A stretch of 64,000 bases of DNA, taken from NCBI RefSeq assembly GCF_008831305.1, contig NZ_ML708614.1:62001-126000 (forward strand). Direction: 5' to 3'. Within the stretch, counting starts at the first letter, position 1; each line of letters begins with the position of its first letter. The position numbers and the translations under genes are program-made. Shown here piece by piece: positions 1 through 9,021 of this stretch. The stretch comes from Kocuria coralli. GTDB taxonomy: Bacteria; Actinomycetota; Actinomycetes; Actinomycetales; Micrococcaceae. The notes under the pieces are model-generated. The model worked only from the letters and a program-made list of their open reading frames with translations. It was not told where the DNA came from and ran no database searches.

Positions 1-1260
1 CGGAGCCCCTGCGGCAATACGCAGGGCGTCCTCGACGGCGATCGGCCCGTATCCGACCAGGTGTGCTGGCTGGTCGCCGTAGCCGGGGTCTTCAATGCCT
101 CCAGCCAACGCTTCATCGAGATCCGGGTCATGAGCGAGGACGCCGGTAGCCGGGACCATGATCGAGACCTGTCCTCTGATCCCGCGAGCGATGCCCGAGG
201 ATTCGGGCAGCTCACCGTCGAGCAGCAGATCGGCCAGTACATCGGCCCGCTTCTCACCCATCGAACGATGCTCCTCCATCCAGATGCCAGAGCCCGGACG
301 GTCCTGGAGGTCTGGGTCGGAATGCCGATCCAGCTGTTGCCCTTCTCCTGGTGCGGCGTCGTCGAGGGTGCCGGCCAGGTGACGGATCCTGGCGCCGATC
401 GCCGTGGCTGTCGGGGCATCCAGCAGGGCCGTCAGATACGCCAGCCCGTCGTCGTCCGGGGACACCCACACATCACGTCGGCGCCTGGCCGCGTTGCAGG
501 CCCGCTGAGCCGCCGCGGCTCCGAGCCCGGCACGGCGCCGACGGGCGTAGTTGGACAGCTGTGCCGTGGTGACATGCGGGGCCCGGGCGAGAAGGTCTTC
601 TACCAGGACGGTGGCCTTGTGCTCCAGATCCGCAGCCTCCTCCTGGGCCCTCTCCAAAACGTCTCCGGTCAAGGTCCGTAGAGCACGGCGAGTGGGGGCC
701 TGCTCCGTCAGGGCTTGCCAATGAGCGAGGATCACTCGTGCCTGTCCCCAGGTGATCTCGCCGTCTTCCAAGGCGGCCAGGGCTACGGGGAGGTCACCGG
801 CGAAAATGAGGGCCTCGGCGACGGTGGCCCTGGCGGTGCCGGCCGGCAGCATCAAGGCCACCGAGATCTCCGCGGCGACATCACGCAGGACCAGGTCCGA
901 CGATCCTTGAGCCAGCGTCGCAGCCGGCTCCTGCTGAGCCTGTTCCCCATGGCGGGCCCTGGCCTCCTCGTAGAGGCCTGCGATCAGCCGGAGCAGGCGG
1001 CCCCGGGCGGAGGCCTCCGCTCTGACCATCTGCTGGATCCCGGCCACCAGCTGCTCCGCCGGGGCTCCGTTCAGATACGTCAGTTCCGGTGGAGGAGAGT
1101 CACGATGAACGCCGTCGTGATGGGCCTGATCGCGAGAGAGGCGACCCCGGCTCGCGTTTCCACGAACCCCCGCACCGTAAGGCCCTCCCCCGCTCTGCTC
1201 CCCAGCAGCGGAAGGCTGATCGTCGAATGGGTCGAACCCCATCCCACCTGCCCCGTCCAT
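1..1260 (-). CDS. DUF222 domain / HNH endonuclease-type protein, C-terminus cut by window edge
   Basis: Reverse-strand frame open from the ATG at 1260 to base 1 with no stop (420 codons). An in-frame TGA lies two codons before the ATG, and a GGGAG about nine bases upstream can serve as ribosome site, so the start is well placed. The protein opens with an acidic/Gly-Pro-rich stretch (about 60 residues), then a helical segment of DUF222 type with phrases such as DGEITWGQARVI, a basic patch NAARRRRDVWV and EHRSMGEKRADVLADLLLDG. In family members an HNH nuclease motif follows in the C-terminal quarter; here it would lie outside the window. DUF222/HNH proteins occur in many copies in actinobacteria and their role is unsettled. 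The family call is from pattern memory. Confidence 0.85.
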   Translation of the reverse strand, partial: MDGAGGMGFDPFDDQPSAAGEQSGGGPYGAGVRGNASRGRLSRDQAHHDGVHRDSPPPELTYLNGAPAEQLVAGIQQMVRAEASARGRLLRLIAGLYEEARARHGEQAQQEPAATLAQGSSDLVLRDVAAEISVALMLPAGTARATVAEALIFAGDLPVALAALEDGEITWGQARVILAHWQALTEQAPTRRALRTLTGDVLERAQEEAADLEHKATVLVEDLLARAPHVTTAQLSNYARRRRAGLGAAAAQRACNAARRRRDVWVSPDDDGLAYLTALLDAPTATAIGARIRHLAGTLDDAAPGEGQQLDRHSDPDLQDRPGSGIWMEEHRSMGEKRADVLADLLLDGELPESSGIARGIRGQVSIMVPATGVLAHDPDLDEALAGGIEDPGYGDQPAHLVGYGPIAVEDALRIAAGAP

Positions 1261-1609
1261 AACTCAAGACTCCCACAGGGGTCAGACAGCACAAGGCGAT
1301 TCAGACCCAGGCCGGCGGGGCGGAGAACATGGAATCTCACGCCCCTTGGAGGCAACGCCATCGTCCCCACCATCCGGTTCGCTCCCGGCAAGGAATCCGC
1401 GCGCTCACCCCTGACCCGCGGTTTCCTCGACGTCGCCGGCCGCTACGGCACCCGTGTACTCGTGGTCGGGGAATCAGTCCCGCTGCAGTCGCCGGGGAAG
1501 CCCGGGCGCCCGATACGCGGTGATCGGACCATGCCCTCGCCCGCAAGGCGGAATCGCCGGGCGAGAGAGGGCTTCTCTTTATTTATCACAGCTGTGATAA
1601 TTTCGTTCC
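1261..1609. other. Intergenic region between DUF222 gene and ABC-F gene
   Basis: 349 bp between two divergent genes. The right end holds the promoter/operator described separately. Just upstream is an 8-bp stem (CTCGCCCG at 1536-1543 pairing with 1558-1565) followed by a T-rich run (1571-1584), which could act as a weak terminator shielding the ABC-F promoter. The rest shows no convincing reading frame with a ribosome site. Confidence 0.5.
1573..1602 (+). promoter_or_regulatory. Palindromic operator over the ABC-F gene promoter
   Basis: Bases 1583-1600 form a perfect 18-bp palindrome, TTATCACAGCTGTGATAA. Its right half contains GATAAT (1596-1601), a good -10 box preceded by TG at the extended position; a TTCTCT lies 17 bp further up (1573-1578) as a weak -35. 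The predicted transcription start falls on or next to the ATG at 1610, and no Shine-Dalgarno is present, so the mRNA is probably leaderless. A perfect palindrome covering the -10 box, with a TetR gene as second gene of the unit, is the classic layout of an autoregulated repressor. That the TetR binds here is inference. Confidence 0.7.
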
Positions 1610-3286
1610 ATGGCTTATCTCGACGTCGCCTCCGTGACCTACGCACTTCCAGACGGGCGTCCGCTGTTGGACGACCTGTCCCTCACCGTCGGCGCGGGAG
1701 AGCGCGTCGCGCTGATCGGCGCCAACGGGACGGGAAAGAGCACACTGCTGCGGATCATCACGAAGGAGGTCACCCCCGAACGGGGCGCCGTCGCCTGCAC
1801 GGGAACGCTGGGGGTGATGAGGCAGTTCGTCGCCGGTGGGACCGTCCACGAACTGCTGCTGTCAGTCGCCTCTTCGGCGATCCGCCGGGCGGCCGAACAC
1901 CTCTCGCGCTCCGAAAGGACCATGGCCGAGCAGGGCAGCACCGAATCGCAGATGGCCTTCGCCTCCGCGGTCACCGCGTGGGGCGACGCGGGAGGTTATG
2001 ACACGGAAGTGATGTGGGATGCCTGCACGGTCGCCGCACTCGGACTGCCGTTCGAACAATGCCGCGGCCGGCCGCTCTCGGCGCTATCGGGCGGTGAGCA
2101 GAAACGGCTCGCGCTGGAAGCCCTGTTGCGGGGACCGGCAGACCTGCTCCTGCTGGACGAACCGGACAACTCCCTCGACGTGCCGGGAAAACAATGGCTC
2201 GAGGACCGGCTCCGGGCCAGCGACAAGGGCATCCTCTACGTCAGCCACGACCGCGAGCTCCTGGCCCGGACCGCGACGACGATCGTGACCCTGGAACGCG
2301 GCGCCGCGGGCAACCGCGCGTGGACGCACCCCGGAGGCTTCGATTCCTATCACGAGGCGCGCCGACGGCGTTTCGAGCGTCTGGAGGAACTGCGCCGTCG
2401 CTGGGACGAGGACCATGCGAAGCTGCGCGCCCTCACGCAGATGTACAAGCAGAAGGCCGCCTACAACTCCGACATGGCCTCCCGCTACCGGGCGGCGCAG
2501 ACGCGCCTGGCCAGATTCGAACGGGAGGGGCCGCCCGAGGAACGGCCTCGTGAACAGCGCCTGACGATGCGCCTGCGGGGCGGGCGCACAGGCAAGCGTG
2601 CCCTCGTCTGCGCCCGGCTCGAGCTCACGGGCCTGATGCGTCCCTTCGATTTGGAGGCCCGGTACGGCGACCGGATCGCGATCCTCGGATCGAACGGTTC
2701 CGGGAAGTCGCATTTCCTCCGGCTGATCGCCGCCGGTGGCAGCGACCCGGAGCACGAGCGCGCATCCACCACGGGCGACATCGTGATCGAGCCCGTCCCC
2801 CATACGGGGACGGCGACCCTGGGCGCCCGCGTGAGCCCCGGGTGGTTCGTGCAGAACCGCGCACGCCCGGATCTGTCAGGGCGCACTCTCCTGGAGATCC
2901 TGCACCGAGGTGACGACCACCGGAACGGATTGGCAGAGGACGAGGCCTCCCGTGCCCTCGCACGATACGAACTCGTGCAAGCCGCCGAGCAGACATTCGA
3001 CTCGCTCTCGGGAGGACAACAGGCCAGGCTTCAGATCCTGCTCCTCGAACTCAGCGGCGCGACCATGCTGCTCCTGGACGAGCCTACCGACAATCTCGAT
3101 ATCATCTCCGCCGAGGCCCTGCAGCACGCACTGGATGCGTACAGCGGAACCGTGATCGCCGTGACGCACGATCGCTGGTTCGCCCGTGACTTCGACCGGT
3201 TCGTCGTCTTCGGAGCCGACGGCAACGTCCGCGAGACCGCGCAGCCGGCATGGGACGAGAGCCGCGTCGAGCGAGAGAGGAGCTGA
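1610..3286 (+). CDS. ABC-F family ATP-binding protein, probable ribosome-protection/antibiotic resistance type
   Basis: 558 residues, two ABC ATPase domains and no membrane segments, as in ABC-F proteins that act on the ribosome rather than in transport. Domain 1: Walker A GANGTGKS (37-44), signature LSGGEQ (159-164), Walker B LLLLDEP (about 179-185), switch SHD (212-214). Between the domains (about 245-325) is a charged, Arg/Glu-rich helical linker like the P-site-tRNA interaction motif. Domain 2: GSNGSGKS, LSGGQQ and LLLDEPTDNLD. The ATG at 1610 has no ribosome site and sits at the predicted transcription start. Pairing with a TetR repressor suggests drug-inducible expression, as for macrolide/lincosamide/pleuromutilin resistance ABC-Fs. 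The actual drug cannot be read from sequence; a housekeeping EttA-like role is less likely. Confidence 0.85.
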   Translation: MAYLDVASVTYALPDGRPLLDDLSLTVGAGERVALIGANGTGKSTLLRIITKEVTPERGAVACTGTLGVMRQFVAGGTVHELLLSVASSAIRRAAEHLSRSERTMAEQGSTESQMAFASAVTAWGDAGGYDTEVMWDACTVAALGLPFEQCRGRPLSALSGGEQKRLALEALLRGPADLLLLDEPDNSLDVPGKQWLEDRLRASDKGILYVSHDRELLARTATTIVTLERGAAGNRAWTHPGGFDSYHEARRRRFERLEELRRRWDEDHAKLRALTQMYKQKAAYNSDMASRYRAAQTRLARFEREGPPEERPREQRLTMRLRGGRTGKRALVCARLELTGLMRPFDLEARYGDRIAILGSNGSGKSHFLRLIAAGGSDPEHERASTTGDIVIEPVPHTGTATLGARVSPGWFVQNRARPDLSGRTLLEILHRGDDHRNGLAEDEASRALARYELVQAAEQTFDSLSGGQQARLQILLLELSGATMLLLDEPTDNLDIISAEALQHALDAYSGTVIAVTHDRWFARDFDRFVVFGADGNVRETAQPAWDESRVERERS

Positions 3287-3291
3287 AGGGC

Positions 3292-3960
3292 ATGCCTGCA
3301 CGGATCGATCCCGCCCGCAGAAGGCAGCAAGTGGTGGAGGCGGCGTTCCGCCTGGTCGTGGCCGAAGGCATCGAGGGCCTGACCCTCAGGAGGGTCGCCG
3401 ACGCATCGCACCTGAATATCGGCTCGGTCCGACACTACTTCGACGGCCATCAGGACCTGCTCGCGGCCGCGGCCCAGGAGGCCGGCGATCGTATGGGGCG
3501 CAGGCTGGCCAGGCACCCTCTCGAGCATCTGGACGGACTCGACGGCGAGGCCGCCGTCGACGCCCTGCAGGCACTGGTCGAGGAGGTACTGCCCGTTGAC
3601 GAGGACCGGCGGGGCGAGGCCATCGTGGTGGTCGAGCTGATCATGGCCTCCCGCACCCGGCCCGTCTTCCAGGCGATGGCCGCACGCATGGCCTCGGACC
3701 TCTCGATGGTGGCCCATGACGCGCTGGCGACACTGGGCGTATCCGACCCCCGGATGCGCGCAGCCCAGCTCACAGCCACCATCGGCGGCCTCACCCTCGA
3801 CGCCGTGACCCCGCACGGGGCGCTGACCGTCGGCCAGCTGCGCGCGACCCTGCGCGCACAGCTGCGGATGCTGCTCGGATCAGCCGGCATCGAAGGAGAT
3901 CGCGGGGCACCGGTAGACCAGCCGGAGACCCGCTCCGATCAGTGCTCCTCGCCGCGATAG
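3292..3960 (+). CDS. TetR family transcriptional regulator
   Basis: About 222 residues. The N-terminal 60 residues form a TetR DNA-binding domain (RRRQQVVEAAFRLVVAEG, then GLTLRRVADASHLNIGSVRHYF as the helix-turn-helix); the rest is a helical ligand-binding part with hydrophobic stretches. The ATG at 3292 is preceded by GAGAGGAG and GAAGGG and lies five bases after the ABC-F stop, so the two genes form one unit. It is the likely repressor of the palindrome at 1583-1600. The last 22 bases overlap the end of the convergent SRPBCC gene. The ligand is unknown, plausibly the antibiotic that the ABC-F protein counters. Confidence 0.85.
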   Translation: MPARIDPARRRQQVVEAAFRLVVAEGIEGLTLRRVADASHLNIGSVRHYFDGHQDLLAAAAQEAGDRMGRRLARHPLEHLDGLDGEAAVDALQALVEEVLPVDEDRRGEAIVVVELIMASRTRPVFQAMAARMASDLSMVAHDALATLGVSDPRMRAAQLTATIGGLTLDAVTPHGALTVGQLRATLRAQLRMLLGSAGIEGDRGAPVDQPETRSDQCSSPR

Positions 3961-4601
3961 AAGGCGGTGGTGCGCAGTTCGGCGGCGCGTGCGTCCTCCT
4001 CGGGGGTTCCCGCATCGACGGAGGCCCGGGCCCACCGGTGGCTGGAGCCGGCCACGAACTCCCTGGCCTGGGGCGAGGTCTCCCAGCCCGAGGACTCGGG
4101 CGGCTTGGAGGCCCCGGTGGAGATGTGCAGGGCCAGCCCCAGCAGACCCAGCTCCCAGCCCACGCCCGTGGCGCCCGGACCGTAAGTTGCCCAGAAGTCG
4201 TTCGGGGTGTCCGCGCGGTGGACGAGAGTGAGCCGTGCACCCTCTTCCGCACCGGTTACGGCCTCCACGCTGACCTCGATGCGGGAGACCGCTCCGCCGA
4301 ACTCCCAGGTGGCGGCGAAATGCCGCGGGGGCTCGCAGCTCTCGACGGTGCCACCCGCATTGCCCTCCACCTGGTATCGGCCGCCGAGCTTCAGGTCGCC
4401 CGTGACCGGGGCGAACCACCGCGGCAGTCTCTCGGCATTGGTGCAGGCATCCCAGAGGTCATCGACGGTGGTCGCGTAGACCTGGCTGAGGCTGGACTGG
4501 ACACGCGCGACCTCCTCCTTCTGCTCGATGGTCAGCCCGCGCTCGACGGCGTCGAGCTGTCCGGCGATATCGACGGGCAGCTCCCCGGTCTCGTCACTCA
4601 T
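3939..4601 (-). CDS. SRPBCC (AHSA1-like) domain protein
   Basis: 220 residues. Residues about 35-160 have the START/Bet v1-like pattern of AHSA1 proteins: a start like SLSQVYATTVDDLWDACTNA, then RLPRWFAPVTGDLKLGGRYQVEGN and a strand-rich middle ending in a long helix around GVGWELGLLGLALH. Such proteins bind hydrophobic ligands in a cavity; the ligand is unknown. Its first eight bases overlap the end of the upstream ArsR gene, so the pair is translationally coupled, a very common actinobacterial arrangement. The C-terminal 50 residues (QAREFVAGSSHRWARASVDAG onward) are typical of this subgroup. No signal peptide, hence cytoplasmic. Confidence 0.85.
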   Translation of the reverse strand: MSDETGELPVDIAGQLDAVERGLTIEQKEEVARVQSSLSQVYATTVDDLWDACTNAERLPRWFAPVTGDLKLGGRYQVEGNAGGTVESCEPPRHFAATWEFGGAVSRIEVSVEAVTGAEEGARLTLVHRADTPNDFWATYGPGATGVGWELGLLGLALHISTGASKPPESSGWETSPQAREFVAGSSHRWARASVDAGTPEEDARAAELRTTAFYRGEEH

Positions 4602-4989
4602 CTCTGTCTCCCTCTCCTGGTACCGGTGCTTCCGGTACTCCCGGTGCGTTTCGCTCCTGCTCCATGCGCCGCTCTCGACGCCCGCGAGCGATCTCGGTGT
4701 CCAGTGCCGCGAACTTGGGCACCCAGAACCGCCGGAAGGCCGCGATCCACTGGTCCGCCTCCTGCAGGGGTGCAGGGTCGACCGAATAGAGCCGCCTGGC
4801 CCCCTGGGGGCGAACGGTGGCGAACCCGCTGTCGCGCAGCACCTTCAGATGCTGGGACACAGCGGGCTGACTGATGCCGAACTCCCCTCCGACGATGTCC
4901 GAGAGCTCGCCGGCGGAACGTTCCCCGCTCGCCATGAGCTCCAGGATCCTTCTCCTGACGGGGTCCCCCAGGATGTCGAGTGCGTGCAT
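4594..4989 (-). CDS. ArsR family winged-helix regulator
   Basis: 131 residues. The N-terminal 90 residues are an ArsR-type winged helix: MHALDILGDPVRRRILELM, then SAGELSDIVGG, the recognition helix ISQPAVSQHLKVLRDSGFATVRPQG and a wing with RRLYSVDP. The ELCVCDL metal-binding motif of arsenic/cadmium sensors is absent, fitting the non-metal subgroup paired with AHSA1/SRPBCC proteins. The ATG at 4989 lies close behind a GGAG and near the predicted transcription start. It probably represses its own operon through the inverted repeat at 4996-5037. Confidence 0.88.
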   Translation of the reverse strand: MHALDILGDPVRRRILELMASGERSAGELSDIVGGEFGISQPAVSQHLKVLRDSGFATVRPQGARRLYSVDPAPLQEADQWIAAFRRFWVPKFAALDTEIARGRRERRMEQERNAPGVPEAPVPGEGDRDE

Positions 4990-4995
4990 GGCTCC

Positions 4996-5037
4996 ATAGT
5001 TTCAGCTGTCGCTTATATAAGTCAATACTGAAGCTAT
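4996..5037. promoter_or_regulatory. Inverted repeat overlapping the arsR promoter
   Basis: ATAGTTTCAG (4996-5005) and CTGAAGCTAT (5028-5037) are inverted copies matching at nine of ten bases, with centres 32 bp apart, close to three helical turns. On the reverse strand a TTGACT (5020-5025) between them is a strong -35 box, and the downstream arm (AACTAT region, 4996-5001) falls at the -10 position. The transcription start would be about 4989-4990, giving almost no leader. Likely the ArsR operator; binding is inferred. Confidence 0.6.
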
Positions 5038-5058
5038 CGATGCCGGGGCGCACAGAGA

Positions 5059-5092
5059 ACCGCCCCCGGATCGGTACCGATCCGGGGGCGGT
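5059..5092. terminator. 34-bp perfect palindrome downstream of the beta-glucosidase gene
   Basis: Bases 5059-5092 are perfectly self-complementary, with no unpaired loop (centre GGTACC at 5073-5078). The stem is GC-rich with a CCCCCGG/CCGGGGG core and starts 17 bp after the beta-glucosidase stop. No long T-run follows, as is common for actinobacterial terminators. It also insulates the arsR promoter from read-through. Confidence 0.7.
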
Positions 5093-5108
5093 CAAGGACG
5101 GGCGTCCG

Positions 5109-7328
5109 TCAGGACTGCTGCGCCTTCTCGACGATCTTCACCATCTCCGTGCGCGGGAGCGGGAAGCCGTCCATCCTGCCCACGGGGAAGTTGGCCAGCA
5201 TCTTGAGCATGCCTGCGTCGTCATCGCCCATGCTCTCGTCCAGCGCGGCCTGCAGAAGAGGGCCGGCATTGGGATCGGCCAGGACCTCGTCGAACGAGGA
5301 CTCCAGGGTGATCGGCAGCTGGACCCGGTCACCGTCGATCTGCACCGTGGCGGACGTGCGCAGATCGCGACTGGAGGCCCCGACCTCGACCGTGTAGGTC
5401 CCGCTCTCGACGATCCAGCTGTCGACGCGGATGTCCCAGTAGGCCAGTTCCGCCCGGCTGAGGGTGAGGGTGACCTCCTTGGTCTCGTTCGGCTCCAGGG
5501 CGACGCTCCGGAACGCCTTGAGCTCGCGCGGCGGGCGCTGCACGGAGGAGCCGGGCAAGGAGGTGTAGGCCTGCACGACTTCGCGGCCGGCCACGGCACC
5601 GGTGTTGGTCACCGTGACCGTCACGACGACGTCGCCGTCCGCGTCCACCGAGGCCGAGGCGTCGCCGATGTCGAAAGTCGTGTAGGACAGGCCGTGGCCG
5701 AAGGGGAACCGGACATCCAGGCCCTTGGCGTCGTACCAGCGGTAACCGACCAGCAGCCCCTCGCCATAACGGGCGTGCCCGTTCTCACCGGGGAAGTTGC
5801 CGAAGGCAGGGGTATCGCTCAGGCGCAGCGGAATCGTCTCGGCGAGCTTGCCGGAGGGGTTGAGCACCCCGTAGAGGACGTCGGCCGTGCCACCGCCACC
5901 GGCCTGGCCGAGCAGCCAGCCCTCCAGGATCGCGGGCACCCGGTCGGCGAACGGGAGGTCGACGCCACCTCCATTGGAGAGAGTGACGACGACGTTGGGG
6001 TTGACCTCGAGCACCGCATCGAGGAGCTCCAGCTGAGCGGCGGGGAGGTCGATGTGCTCGCGGTCGTAGCCCTCCGACTCCTCGTGGGCGGGAACGCCCA
6101 GGAAGACCACGACCTTCTCCGCCTCGCCGGCGATGGCCACGGCCTCGGCCCGCAGAGCCTCGGCGTCCCCGGAGCCGTCGACCGTGTAGCCCTGGGCGAA
6201 GGCCACCTCGCCGTCGGCCAGGGCGCGGATCTCCTCCAGCCCCGTGTCGAGGCGGGTGGGGTTGATCTGGGACGAGCCGGCACCCTGGTAGCGCGGCGTC
6301 TCGGCGAACGTCCCGACCACCGCCACCTTCGTGCCACTGCTGAGCGGCAGGAAGCCATCGTCGTTCTTGAGCAGCACGATCGAACGGCCCGCGACCTCGC
6401 GGGCGAGGGTGTGATGCGCCTCGACGTCGAGGGGTCCGTCGACGGCCGGGCGGGTCAGGGACCTGCCGACGAGGTCGAGCACCCGCTGGACCACGGCGTC
6501 GAGCTCGGCCTCCTCGAGCTCACCGGCGCGAACCGCGGCCACGATCTCGGCGGGCGTGCGCCCGTTGCTGGAGGGCATCTCCAGGTCGAGACCGGCGCGA
6601 ACACCGGCCACCCGGTTGGACACGGCTCCCCAGTCGGAGACGACGAGGCCCTCGAAGCCCCAGTCGTCCCGCAGCACCTCGGTCAGCAGGAAGGGATCCT
6701 CCGATGCGAGGACGCCGTTGACCCGGTTGTAGGAGCACATCACCGTCCAGGGCTGGGCGCTCTTGACGACTCGCTCGAAGCCCCGCAGGTAGATCTCGCG
6801 CAGCGGCCGGGGGTCGACGTCGCTGGAGACCCGGAGGCGGTCGGTCTCCTGGTTGTTGGCGGCGAAGTGCTTCAGCGACGAGCCCACGCCCTTGGACTGG
6901 ATGCCCTGGACCAGGCCGGCCCCCATCGCCCCGGCGACGATCGGATCCTCCGACATGTATTCGAAGTTGCGGCCGCACAGGGGCGAGCGCTTGATGTTGA
7001 TCCCGGGGCCGAGGATGACGGCGACGTCCTCGATGGCCGACTCGGTCCCCAGCGCCTCACCGACCCGTTCCGCCAGATCGGGGTCGAACGTGGCGCTGAG
7101 CCCGACGGCCGGAGGGAAGCAGGTGGCCGGGACGCTGGCCGAGAGCCCCAGGTGATCCGATCCGCCCGACTGCTTGCGCAGGCCGTGCGGCCCGTCGGTC
7201 ATCATGATGGACGGGACACCGGCTCGCTCGACGCTCGCCGTGGTCCAGAAGTCGGCGCCGCTGGTCAGAGCGGCCTTCTCCTCGAGAGTGAGGTCGGAGA
7301 CGTTCGGCAGTTGAGGCGATTCAGACAT
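5109..7328 (-). CDS. Glycoside hydrolase family 3 beta-glucosidase, intracellular
   Basis: 739 residues from the ATG at 7328, which has GGGAG five bases upstream; the frame stays open further up but without a comparable site. N-terminal GH3 barrel: TDGPHGLRKQ (44-53), KHFAANNQETDR (153-164) and nucleophile Asp232 in GLVVSDWGAV. A second alpha/beta domain follows, then a fibronectin-III-like domain (about 570-660) and a C-terminal extension of roughly 90 residues. There is no signal peptide, so it should hydrolyse imported beta-glucosides such as cellobiose or gentiobiose in the cytoplasm. It diverges from the (broken) MFS transporter gene, which would have imported the substrate. Exact linkage specificity cannot be read. 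Confidence 0.9.
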   Translation of the reverse strand: MSESPQLPNVSDLTLEEKAALTSGADFWTTASVERAGVPSIMMTDGPHGLRKQSGGSDHLGLSASVPATCFPPAVGLSATFDPDLAERVGEALGTESAIEDVAVILGPGINIKRSPLCGRNFEYMSEDPIVAGAMGAGLVQGIQSKGVGSSLKHFAANNQETDRLRVSSDVDPRPLREIYLRGFERVVKSAQPWTVMCSYNRVNGVLASEDPFLLTEVLRDDWGFEGLVVSDWGAVSNRVAGVRAGLDLEMPSSNGRTPAEIVAAVRAGELEEAELDAVVQRVLDLVGRSLTRPAVDGPLDVEAHHTLAREVAGRSIVLLKNDDGFLPLSSGTKVAVVGTFAETPRYQGAGSSQINPTRLDTGLEEIRALADGEVAFAQGYTVDGSGDAEALRAEAVAIAGEAEKVVVFLGVPAHEESEGYDREHIDLPAAQLELLDAVLEVNPNVVVTLSNGGGVDLPFADRVPAILEGWLLGQAGGGGTADVLYGVLNPSGKLAETIPLRLSDTPAFGNFPGENGHARYGEGLLVGYRWYDAKGLDVRFPFGHGLSYTTFDIGDASASVDADGDVVVTVTVTNTGAVAGREVVQAYTSLPGSSVQRPPRELKAFRSVALEPNETKEVTLTLSRAELAYWDIRVDSWIVESGTYTVEVGASSRDLRTSATVQIDGDRVQLPITLESSFDEVLADPNAGPLLQAALDESMGDDDAGMLKMLANFPVGRMDGFPLPRTEMVKIVEKAQQS

Positions 7329-7486
7329 GGAAACTCCCGGAGGATGGACGGCGTCATTGCCGCATCCCAGGACGGGTGCGGTGCGAGAAACCGTAGCCGT
7401 TTGGATTTTGATCGACAAGGGCTTGCGAGCGGGCTACCAGCGGGTTACGCGTACCTTAACGAAACCTGAATCCTGCCTCTTGTGCT

Positions 7487-7511
7487 GAAAACCTAAACGG
7501 ACTAGGTTTTC
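7487..7511. promoter_or_regulatory. Inverted repeat in the beta-glucosidase/MFS divergent region
   Basis: GAAAACCTA (7487-7495) and TAGGTTTTC (7503-7511) form a perfect 9-bp inverted repeat around a 7-bp centre. It lies in the 265-bp region between the divergent beta-glucosidase and transporter genes. AT-rich arms and the absence of a T-tail favour a repressor operator over a terminator. The cognate regulator is not encoded next to it. Confidence 0.5.
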
Positions 7512-7593
7512 CTCGCATGAGGCGCAGTGTGGCGTCCGACACATTCGGATCCGTCATTCCCGCCGATCCCAAGATTGGCCATAGGAGGCAGGG

Positions 7594-8942
7594 ATGACGT
7601 CAGTAAGTGGGTCAGCCGCTGGCAACCCTTCGGGGATGACCATGGCGGGCGAGGTGGTCCGTGAGCACCACTGGTTCAAGGAACCGACCGACCCGGCACC
7701 CAAGTCGTATATGTTCGCGCTGGTCATAGCGCAGTTCCTTCTTCGTCGCCCTGCTCGGTCCGGCGATCATCGGCGTCAGCCTGAAGATCGTCACGATCGT
7801 CGAGGACGTCGGGGTCGCCCGTGAGAACGCCGTCGCCGTCGTCGCCGGTGTGGGAGCCGCGGGCGCCCTCATCGCCAACGTCGTCTTCGGCCGGCTCTCG
7901 GACCGCACCACCTCGAAGCTCGGCCGCCGCCGGCCGTGGATCGTGGGCGGCACCCTGGGCATGAGCCTGGGCCTGATCATCATGGCGCTCGCACCGAACG
8001 TCGCCATGACCGCGGGCGGCTGGTTCATCGCGCAGCTGGGTGCCAACGCCACCCTGGCGCCGTTCATCGCGACCATCTCCGACCAGGTCCCGAAGTTCCA
8101 GCGCGGCGGCGTCTCGGCCCTGCTCGGCATGGCCCAGAACGTCGGCATCCTCGGCGGCACCTGGGTCGCGGAGCTGTTCCAGTCGAACATGTTCGTGATG
8201 CTCGTGGTCCCGTCCTTCGTGGCGATCGCGGCCATGCTGTTCTTCGCCTTCGTCCTCAAGGACCAGGTGCTGCCGGCCAAGCCGCCGTCCATGACCCTCA
8301 AGGAATGGGCGCAGACCTTCTGGGTGAGCCCCCTCAAGTACCCCGACTACGCCTTCGCGTGGTGGTCGCGGTTCCTGATCACGATGGCCTCGTTCATGTT
8401 CAGCACCTACCGGTTCTTCTTCCTGAACCGGCAGGTGGGCGTCCCCGAGGAGAACGTCGCCGGCGTCATCACGACCAGCGTGCTGATCTACACGGTCTGC
8501 CTGGTGGTCACCGCCTGGTTCGCGGGCAAGCTCTCGGACAAGCTCCAGCGGCGCAAGATCTTCGTCATCCTGTCGACCGTCCTGTACGCCGTCGGCACGG
8601 TCATGCTCGCCCACACCCACTCGGTGGACATGTTCTACCTGGTCGAGGCGGTGCTCGGTATCGCCTACGGCGTCTACATCGGCGTCGATCTCGCCCTGGT
8701 GGTCGACGTCCTCCCGAACCCGGACGATGCGGGCAAGGACCTGGGCGTGTTCAACATCGCCAACGCCCTGCCCCAGACGCTCTCGCCGATCCTCGCCGAT
8801 CCTCGTCGGCTTCATCGTCGCCTGGACGGCGGTGACGGTAGACGGCCAAGAAGTCGCGAACTATCAACCGTTGCTGTATATCGCAGGCGCTCTAGCACTC
8901 ATAGACGCAGCGGTGATCATACCCATCAAGAAAGTCAAGTAG
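7594..8942 (+). pseudogene. MFS sugar transporter disrupted by two frameshifts
   Basis: Starts at ATG 7594 behind a strong AGGAGG. The frame is lost at 7738, where one extra C in TTCCTTCTT breaks the second part of a membrane helix, and again at about 8783-8802, where the ten bases TCGCCGATCC are tandemly duplicated. Removing these 11 bases restores a clean 445-codon frame ending at TAG 8942, with about 12 membrane helices and the MFS loop motif GRLSDRTTSKLGRRRPW. The family resembles glycoside/sugar transporters, and the divergent intracellular beta-glucosidase supports beta-glucoside uptake. Either a recent pseudogene or two sequencing/assembly errors; both changes are of the kind either could create. 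Confidence 0.8.
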
Positions 8943-8947
8943 CGCCA

Positions 8948-8991
8948 GGAAGGGGCGGGACGACGTTCGGATACGTCGTCCCGCCCCTTCC
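8948..8991. terminator. Bidirectional terminator between MFS gene and dhaM
   Basis: A perfect 19-bp GC-rich stem (8948-8966 with 8973-8991) around a 6-base loop, six bases past the stop of the forward transporter gene and about 30 bp past the stop of the reverse dhaM gene. It can end transcription from both sides. Confidence 0.85.
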
Positions 8992-9021
8992 CTGTGCCCG
9001 CTCCCCTGCCGCTCCGTCAGG

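Follow-up and report, generated by a model that had tools for sequence, protein, structure and literature searches.

We analysed a 64,000-nucleotide (nt) stretch of the Kocuria coralli genome (contig NZ_ML708614.1), called the window throughout, in which a gene for an ABC-F ATPase (abcF) is followed directly by a gene for a TetR-family regulator (tetR). We consider it probable that this pair is an autorepressed operon, in which TetR occludes the extended -10 element of a probably leaderless message and is released by a ligand, which is probably a drug that targets the ribosome. The sequence and its relatives support the operator, its cognate TetR and the overlap of operator and promoter, and we infer the transcription start, the single transcript carrying both genes, the ligand and the protection of ribosomes. 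The features needed for the argument are these:

1583-1600, no strand: predicted TetR operator, perfect palindrome TTATCAC-AGCT-GTGATAA, from the sequence and the conservation of its core in relatives
1595-1603, plus strand: extended -10 element TGA-TAATTT, overlapping the right operator half by its first six bases, from the sequence and relatives
1604-1610, plus strand: 6-nt discriminator and predicted transcription start at the A of the ATG (leaderless), from spacing and the absent Shine-Dalgarno sequence
1610-3286, plus strand: ABC-F ATPase of 558 amino acids (aa), candidate ribosome-protection protein, by domain, profile and structure comparison
3277-3282, plus strand: Shine-Dalgarno sequence GAGGAG of tetR, inside the 3′ end of abcF, from the sequence
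3292-3960, plus strand: TetR-family repressor of 222 aa with a BetI/TetR_C_6-type ligand domain, by Pfam, profile and predicted-structure matches
3415-3417, plus strand: codon of Asn42, which adjoins the first residue of the recognition helix and tracks an operator base

In the mechanism that we propose, a TetR dimer would bind TATCAC-N4-GTGATA, whose right half would double as the extended -10 (TGATAATTT) of the sole promoter recognisable here, so that bound TetR and RNA polymerase would be mutually exclusive. The transcript would start at, or within one or two bases of, the A of the abcF ATG, and leaderless translation is most likely. Because tetR lies 5 nt downstream with its own Shine-Dalgarno sequence, repression would be self-limiting. 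A small molecule, most likely a drug acting at the peptidyl-transferase region of the ribosome, would bind TetR and free the operator, and derepression would then supply both the ABC-F, to protect the ribosome, and new repressor, to close the operon once the drug is gone. The genes that accompany TetR relatives in other genomes are what suggest a ribosome-targeting drug as inducer.

The palindrome and the promoter

The sequence TTATCACAGCTGTGATAA at 1583-1600 is, as a preliminary description of this DNA had it, a perfect 18-bp palindrome. It ends 9 nt upstream of the abcF ATG and sits in a patch of 38% GC (1570-1609) within a window of 70% GC. The exact 18 bp occur once in the 3.4-Mb genome, and allowing up to 3 mismatches adds one other site. 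Rarity was dropped as evidence, because about one perfect palindrome of at least 18 bp is expected per window by chance (3 observed versus 0.95 expected per 64 kb in first-order Markov simulations), so the case for an operator rests on conservation.

The preliminary description also placed the -10 hexamer inside the palindrome. Five of the six bases of GATAAT (1596-1601) do lie there. TAATTT (1598-1603) with TGA (1595-1597) is the better -10 register, as it fits the actinobacterial TANNNT and leaves a 6-nt gap to the start, so that the palindrome takes in the TG extension and half of this hexamer, its first three bases. The TetR loci scored number 21: the window, two genome loci and the 18 relatives described below. 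In 19 of them a TANNNT with TG extension lies 6-8 nt from the abcF start, the exceptions being TAAATA in L017 and TAAACA in L074.

The ATG at 1610 is preceded by a Shine-Dalgarno consensus match of only 3 nt at most, confirming the earlier remark that abcF starts without a ribosome site, and the longest match before tetR is 5 nt. Matches of at least 4 nt precede 1 of 21 abcF starts with TetR, 16 of 61 without TetR and 17 of 21 tetR starts. In promoters of the Streptomyces coelicolor WblC regulon, transcription starts 7-8 bp downstream of the -10 (PMC7157823), and nearly a quarter of mycobacterial transcripts are leaderless (PMC4633059), so leaderless translation is ordinary in this phylum. From the 6-8 nt between -10 and start codon and the scarcity of Shine-Dalgarno sequences, the abcF message is probably leaderless; the claim that the ATG sits at the transcription start thereby gains support, with the start position itself still a prediction. 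The tetR start lies 5 nt past the abcF stop on the same strand, and we take the two genes to share one transcript.

Co-occurrence of the operator with TetR

For conservation, we used the best 80 of 281 ABC-F relatives found, which are 65-80% identical in their best segment and come from actinobacterial genomes. The operator was defined as TATCAC-N4-GTGATA with at most one mismatch in the 12 core bases. In 18 of the 80 loci a TetR relative lies downstream on the same strand, its match starting 6-61 nt beyond that of the ABC-F. The operator stands 9-11 nt before the abcF start in 18 of 18 TetR-bearing relatives, its core being exact in 16 and carrying one mismatch each in L019, which has an additional copy upstream, and in L074. 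By contrast, it is found within 300 nt upstream in 0 of 61 scorable TetR-less relatives, where at least 4 of 14 bases differ in every case. The preliminary description had proposed to look in relatives for the palindrome in front of ABC-F/TetR pairs, and that check was passed. In these counts, L075, whose contig ends inside abcF, is outside the 61 and the 81 rows below and inside the 62 used for WblC promoter scoring; L067 has only about 220 nt after abcF, so its TetR-less status is weaker; L062 and L114 have frame breaks in abcF and were kept in the promoter counts and excluded from the ABC-F tree; and L126 and L035, at zero distance in that tree, are probably one genome.

The two half-sites behave differently. 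At the fixed position, the 21 TetR loci match 5.9 of 6 bases on the left and 6.0 of 6 on the right, whereas the 61 TetR-less loci match 1.20 of 6 on the left (shuffled 1.23) and 3.9 of 6 on the right (shuffled 2.7). With the right half above shuffled and the left at chance, it thus appears that the start-proximal half is partly retained without TetR for the promoter and that the distal half is retained only alongside TetR. Mapped on the ABC-F tree, operator and TetR are both present or both absent in 81 of 81 rows and change six times each, and independent pairs on well-supported branches are concordant in 4 of 4. One Brevibacterium-group genome (G696) has one abcF copy of each type. Near-identical abcF-tetR-MFS units in Corynebacterium, Auritidibacter and a Brevibacterium-group genome (L018, L019 and L115; three families) are likely the result of recent transfer.

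The operator also accompanies TetR away from abcF. Among 396 genomes of the order, the TetR was found (E <= 1e-35) in 5, with the operator in 5 of 5 of these, and the operator pattern was found in nine. The four matches without TetR (G485, G593, G604 and G740, in the genus group of G581) are one shared coding-looking stretch and were set aside as chance. In genome G647 (locus L111), the operator with its -10 immediately precedes tetR, at a distance of 52 nt from the tetR start, and the genome's best ABC-F match reaches only 30% identity. The region L111:4771-6620, where a Cmx-like MFS gene accompanies tetR and the operator, is a version of the module that lacks the ABC-F, either swapped or stripped.

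Among 394 genomes of the class, a TetR match (E <= 1e-18) was found in 12, the window's own genome included. One of the 11 others (L153) has ABC-F, operator and TetR; L154, L155 and L157 have a GTGATA-type operator before tetR and no ABC-F in the stretch examined, the 18-mer of L155 being identical to that of the window at 41% TetR identity; and the sites in L156 and L158-L163 are of the GTGCTA type. Of 199 Streptomyces genomes, 23 match the L157 query. In this genus, L191, L192 and L194 have an operator before abcF and a second one 10 nt before tetR, and L193 has tetR with operator and no ABC-F within the 7.5 kb examined. A second operator before tetR is also present in L031 and L048 (Nocardia), and in all five of these two-operator loci tetR is farther from abcF and lacks a Shine-Dalgarno sequence, its separate operator lying 10 nt upstream of the tetR start. 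In L141, from a Rhodococcus plasmid, the TetR and ABC-F genes are divergent, with a perfect CTATCAC-N4-GTGATAG 10 nt before the tetR start. TetR relatives thus keep the operator without an adjoining ABC-F and in divergent order, down to about 40% identity.

Scans of wider scope gave little more. In a phylum-wide operator scan, 11 of 396 genomes matched (the window's own and ten), none of the ten with a close ABC-F or TetR relative within about 1.5 kb on each side. Viral contigs held no TetR relative, and plasmids held one (40%, the Rhodococcus plasmid) together with ABC-F relatives below 60% in seven records. A search for a TetR regulon elsewhere in the window's genome found a single exact TATCAC-N4-GTGATA site. 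Three further observations concern such sites. The window's genome (G000) has 33 other sites with 2 mismatches to TATCAC-N4-GTGATA versus 9 for the reversed pattern. Two tandem operator-like sites precede tetR in 12 of 14 loci (L156-L163 and L195-L200). At L112:3175-3190 (G137, a distant actinobacterium) a site of the same type, TTATCACGGTTGTGATAA, is followed by a TGATAAT-like element, and the 7 kb examined there encode no protein related to this TetR.

Operator and repressor also vary together. Helix 43-49 of the predicted TetR structure, which we take from the TetR fold to be the recognition helix, adjoins Asn42. More distant TetRs go with sites of the form TAGCAC-N4-GTGCTA, and residue 42 is Asn with a right half of GTGATA in 37 of 37 cases and Ala or Val with GTGCTA in 18 of 18 (L164, the same place as L157, was omitted; L180 and L189 are probably the same genome as L017). 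This covariation of residue 42 with one operator base is suggestive of a link between this TetR and this operator.

The companions of TetR in other genomes include two kinds of gene. Of the 27 same-strand ABC-F-tetR loci (26 should L189 and L017 be one genome), 8 have an MFS gene after tetR, and so do L111, L193, L155 and L141, with Pfam MFS_1 matches on L111, L193 and L141. The best NCBIfam model for this MFS gene is Cmx/CmrA chloramphenicol efflux, with scores below the cut-off of 400 bits (187 in L111, 181 in L002 and 173 in L141). The second kind has a copy of the operator ahead of it:

L115:2255-3607 and L141:538-1881, minus strand: GNAT acetyltransferase of about 450 aa, the two 45% identical to each other

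The L141 acetyltransferase has a MazG-like tail scoring 26.7 of 27 bits, and the copies in L018 and L019 look broken. Neither the Cmx-like MFS gene nor the acetyltransferase has a match in 1-9000 of the window, and neither adjoins tetR there.

Promoters of the WhiB7/WblC type

Published control of resistance ABC-Fs, in the sources drawn on here, is by ribosome-mediated attenuation or, in actinobacteria, by WhiB7/WblC. Attenuation has been described for cplR (PMC10201436); in S. coelicolor, WblC and the gene's 5′ region control are5sc (PMC12421871); and Mycobacterium abscessus MAB_1846 and MAB_2355c belong to the direct WhiB7 regulon (PMC10727445). The WblC promoter consensus is GAAAWY-N3-TKGMNN (-35)-N16-19-TANNNT (-10) (PMC7157823), and we scored promoters against it out of 13, counting 10 or more as WhiB7/WblC-like, a score reached by 0.7% of shuffles. 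Such scores, with the -10 near the start codon, were obtained for 30 of 62 TetR-less relatives, many of them close kin (Kribbella, Jiangella, Nocardioides), versus 2 of 21 TetR loci; other TetR-less scores are 6-8 in Brevibacterium and Leucobacter and 9-11 in Brachybacterium. The window promoter differs in scoring 8 of 13, with a box of GAGAGG rather than GAAAWY.

The two TetR loci that reach 10 are L031 and L048, both from Nocardia, in the 60 nt before the abcF start at 4001. There the TetR operator forms the 17-bp spacer between a WhiB7-like box with its -35 on the upstream side and the -10 on the other, a hybrid layout that suggests combined WhiB7-type and TetR control. In their nearest TetR-less relative (L036, Nocardia), box and -10 are kept and operator and TetR are absent. 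We put forward, as a tentative proposal that could well prove wrong, that one ABC-F family, read leaderless from a -10 near the start codon, has exchanged its sensor in the course of evolution: WhiB7/WblC, a global activator responding to ribosome stress, would serve some lineages, a dedicated drug-binding TetR would serve others, and Nocardia would have an AND-type promoter. TetR would then read the drug itself ahead of any ribosome stalling, and translation of the leaderless message might continue in the presence of the drug.

Protein identities, alternatives and meaning

The regulator matches Pfam TetR_N (31.1 bits, cut-off 24) and TetR_C_6 (42.5 bits, cut-off 27), which places it in the TetR family as the preliminary description had read it. 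Its predicted structure (pLDDT 90) is closest to the uncharacterised Rhodococcus regulator 2np5, with the multidrug-binding EbrR further down. The ABC-F matches Pfam ABC_tran in two stretches and has no transmembrane part, as expected of an ABC-F ATPase, and its predicted structure (pLDDT 83) has helices 244-283 and 288-306 between the two domains. The best structural matches are VgaL (Z 32.6), VgaA-LC (31.7), VmlR2 (30.4) and VmlR (30.1), followed by EttA (29.4), and on the producer model NF000171 it scores 209 of 800 bits, below the cut-off. We regard it as a candidate resistance ABC-F. Like those of the VgaL, VgaA, LsaA, VmlR and MsrE type it has two ABC domains, long interdomain helices and no membrane part, but it is only 18-27% identical to those in the structure ranking, and it has an adjoining TetR in place of the attenuation (cplR) or WhiB7/WblC control reported for them. 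TiaA and Are5sc of S. coelicolor are likewise actinobacterial ABC-Fs of resistance type and drug-induced, but their promoters are active without drug and control lies in the 5′ region (with WblC for are5sc), the passages of PMC12421871 drawn on here mentioning no TetR regulator.

Regulators of the TetR, QacR and EbrR type are autorepressors of efflux genes. The K. coralli pair shares with them a predicted palindromic operator over the promoter, an adjacent target and a predicted TetR fold that includes the EbrR match. It differs in having an ABC-F as target and in that one operator half also serves as the extended -10 of a promoter that is probably leaderless.

Several observations weigh against an autorepressed, drug-released operon. 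No -35 is recognisable, and a -35/-10 consensus scan detects no promoter here. The operator is sometimes far from a start (52 nt before tetR in L111, 31 in L154 and 20 in L166), and the ABC-F scores 260 bits on the NCBI ribosomal-protection model NF000355, the cut-off of which is 380. Two of the 37 Asn rows (L165 and L169) carry the alternative base in the left half, and 3 of 58 rows are without an operator in the DNA examined, of which L180 and L183 show one in longer loci and L182 (Ser) does not. The large co-occurrence counts are not independent, since the four concordant independent pairs alone give p 0.125, the 61 TetR-less loci include many close relatives (12 Kribbella and 12 Brevibacterium-type rows in the tree), and the residue-42 covariation amounts to about 2 changes in a TetR tree built with residue 42 masked. 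The preliminary description had proposed a drug-sensing TetR switch, and of this the link between TetR and operator is borne out by conservation, the TetR-only loci, the divergent locus and residue 42, while drug sensing and the resistance type of the ABC-F remain things that we infer.

The palindrome could instead act in RNA, where, with a start farther upstream, a hairpin by the start codon and possibly a leader peptide would attenuate abcF as in some Firmicutes resistance ABC-Fs. As a transcript it would fold into a stem of 7 bp capped by a loop of 4 nt, cplR is a published case of attenuation (PMC10201436), and symmetric base changes fit an RNA stem as well as a dimer site. However, the fold has a z of only -1.13 against shuffles, 27 of 200 of which fold at least as well, and there is no Rfam match (upstream open reading frames were not searched for systematically), so that an Rfam RNA or hairpin at this place is unsupported; moreover, the motif occurs only with TetR and stands before tetR where no ABC-F intervenes, pairing is broken at the variable position in L165 and L169, and the abcF start has no Shine-Dalgarno sequence for a hairpin to hide. 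We therefore hold control by an RNA hairpin to be very improbable. Reading of the operator by another host regulator, with TetR hitch-hiking on a mobile unit, has a probability close to negligible: the pair is indeed patchy over many families and near-identical in Corynebacterium, Auritidibacter and the Brevibacterium-group genome, so whole units probably move, but the TetR helix covaries with the operator, the operator accompanies TetR into different gene orders, and the genome has a single exact site.

It is also conceivable, if unlikely, that promoter and operator are as we describe and that TetR senses a metabolite or general stress, the ABC-F being a translation factor and not a resistance protein. 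The BetI-type matches of the TetR ligand domain, the closeness of EttA behind the resistance proteins (Z 29.4 versus 32.6 to 30.1) and the score below the resistance model's cut-off would all fit this. Against it stand the MFS gene that follows TetR relatives in the loci listed above (best model Cmx/CmrA, below cut-off), the operator copies ahead of the acetyltransferase genes in L115 and L141, and the 30 of 62 TetR-less ABC-F relatives with WhiB7/WblC-like promoters. Release of TetR by a drug remains the reading that we prefer.

The surroundings of the pair can be described briefly. Downstream of tetR, on the opposite strand, are an AHSA1-domain gene and a gene for an ArsR-type regulator, and a 34-bp perfect palindrome at 5059-5092, perhaps a terminator, lies between the latter and a long minus-strand open reading frame that by reading resembles a glycosidase. 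A DUF222 protein is encoded at 1-1260 on the minus strand, divergent from abcF.

In the open-access full-text literature, judged by title and the opening of the abstract and with subscription papers outside its scope, we recognised no TetR-controlled ABC-F. If our reading is true, a one-component TetR switch would be a further mode of ABC-F control, able to respond to the drug itself. The operator and the residue-42 rule make the switch directly testable, and the wider regulon of ABC-F, Cmx-like efflux and acetyltransferase genes could be mapped with them in actinobacterial genomes.

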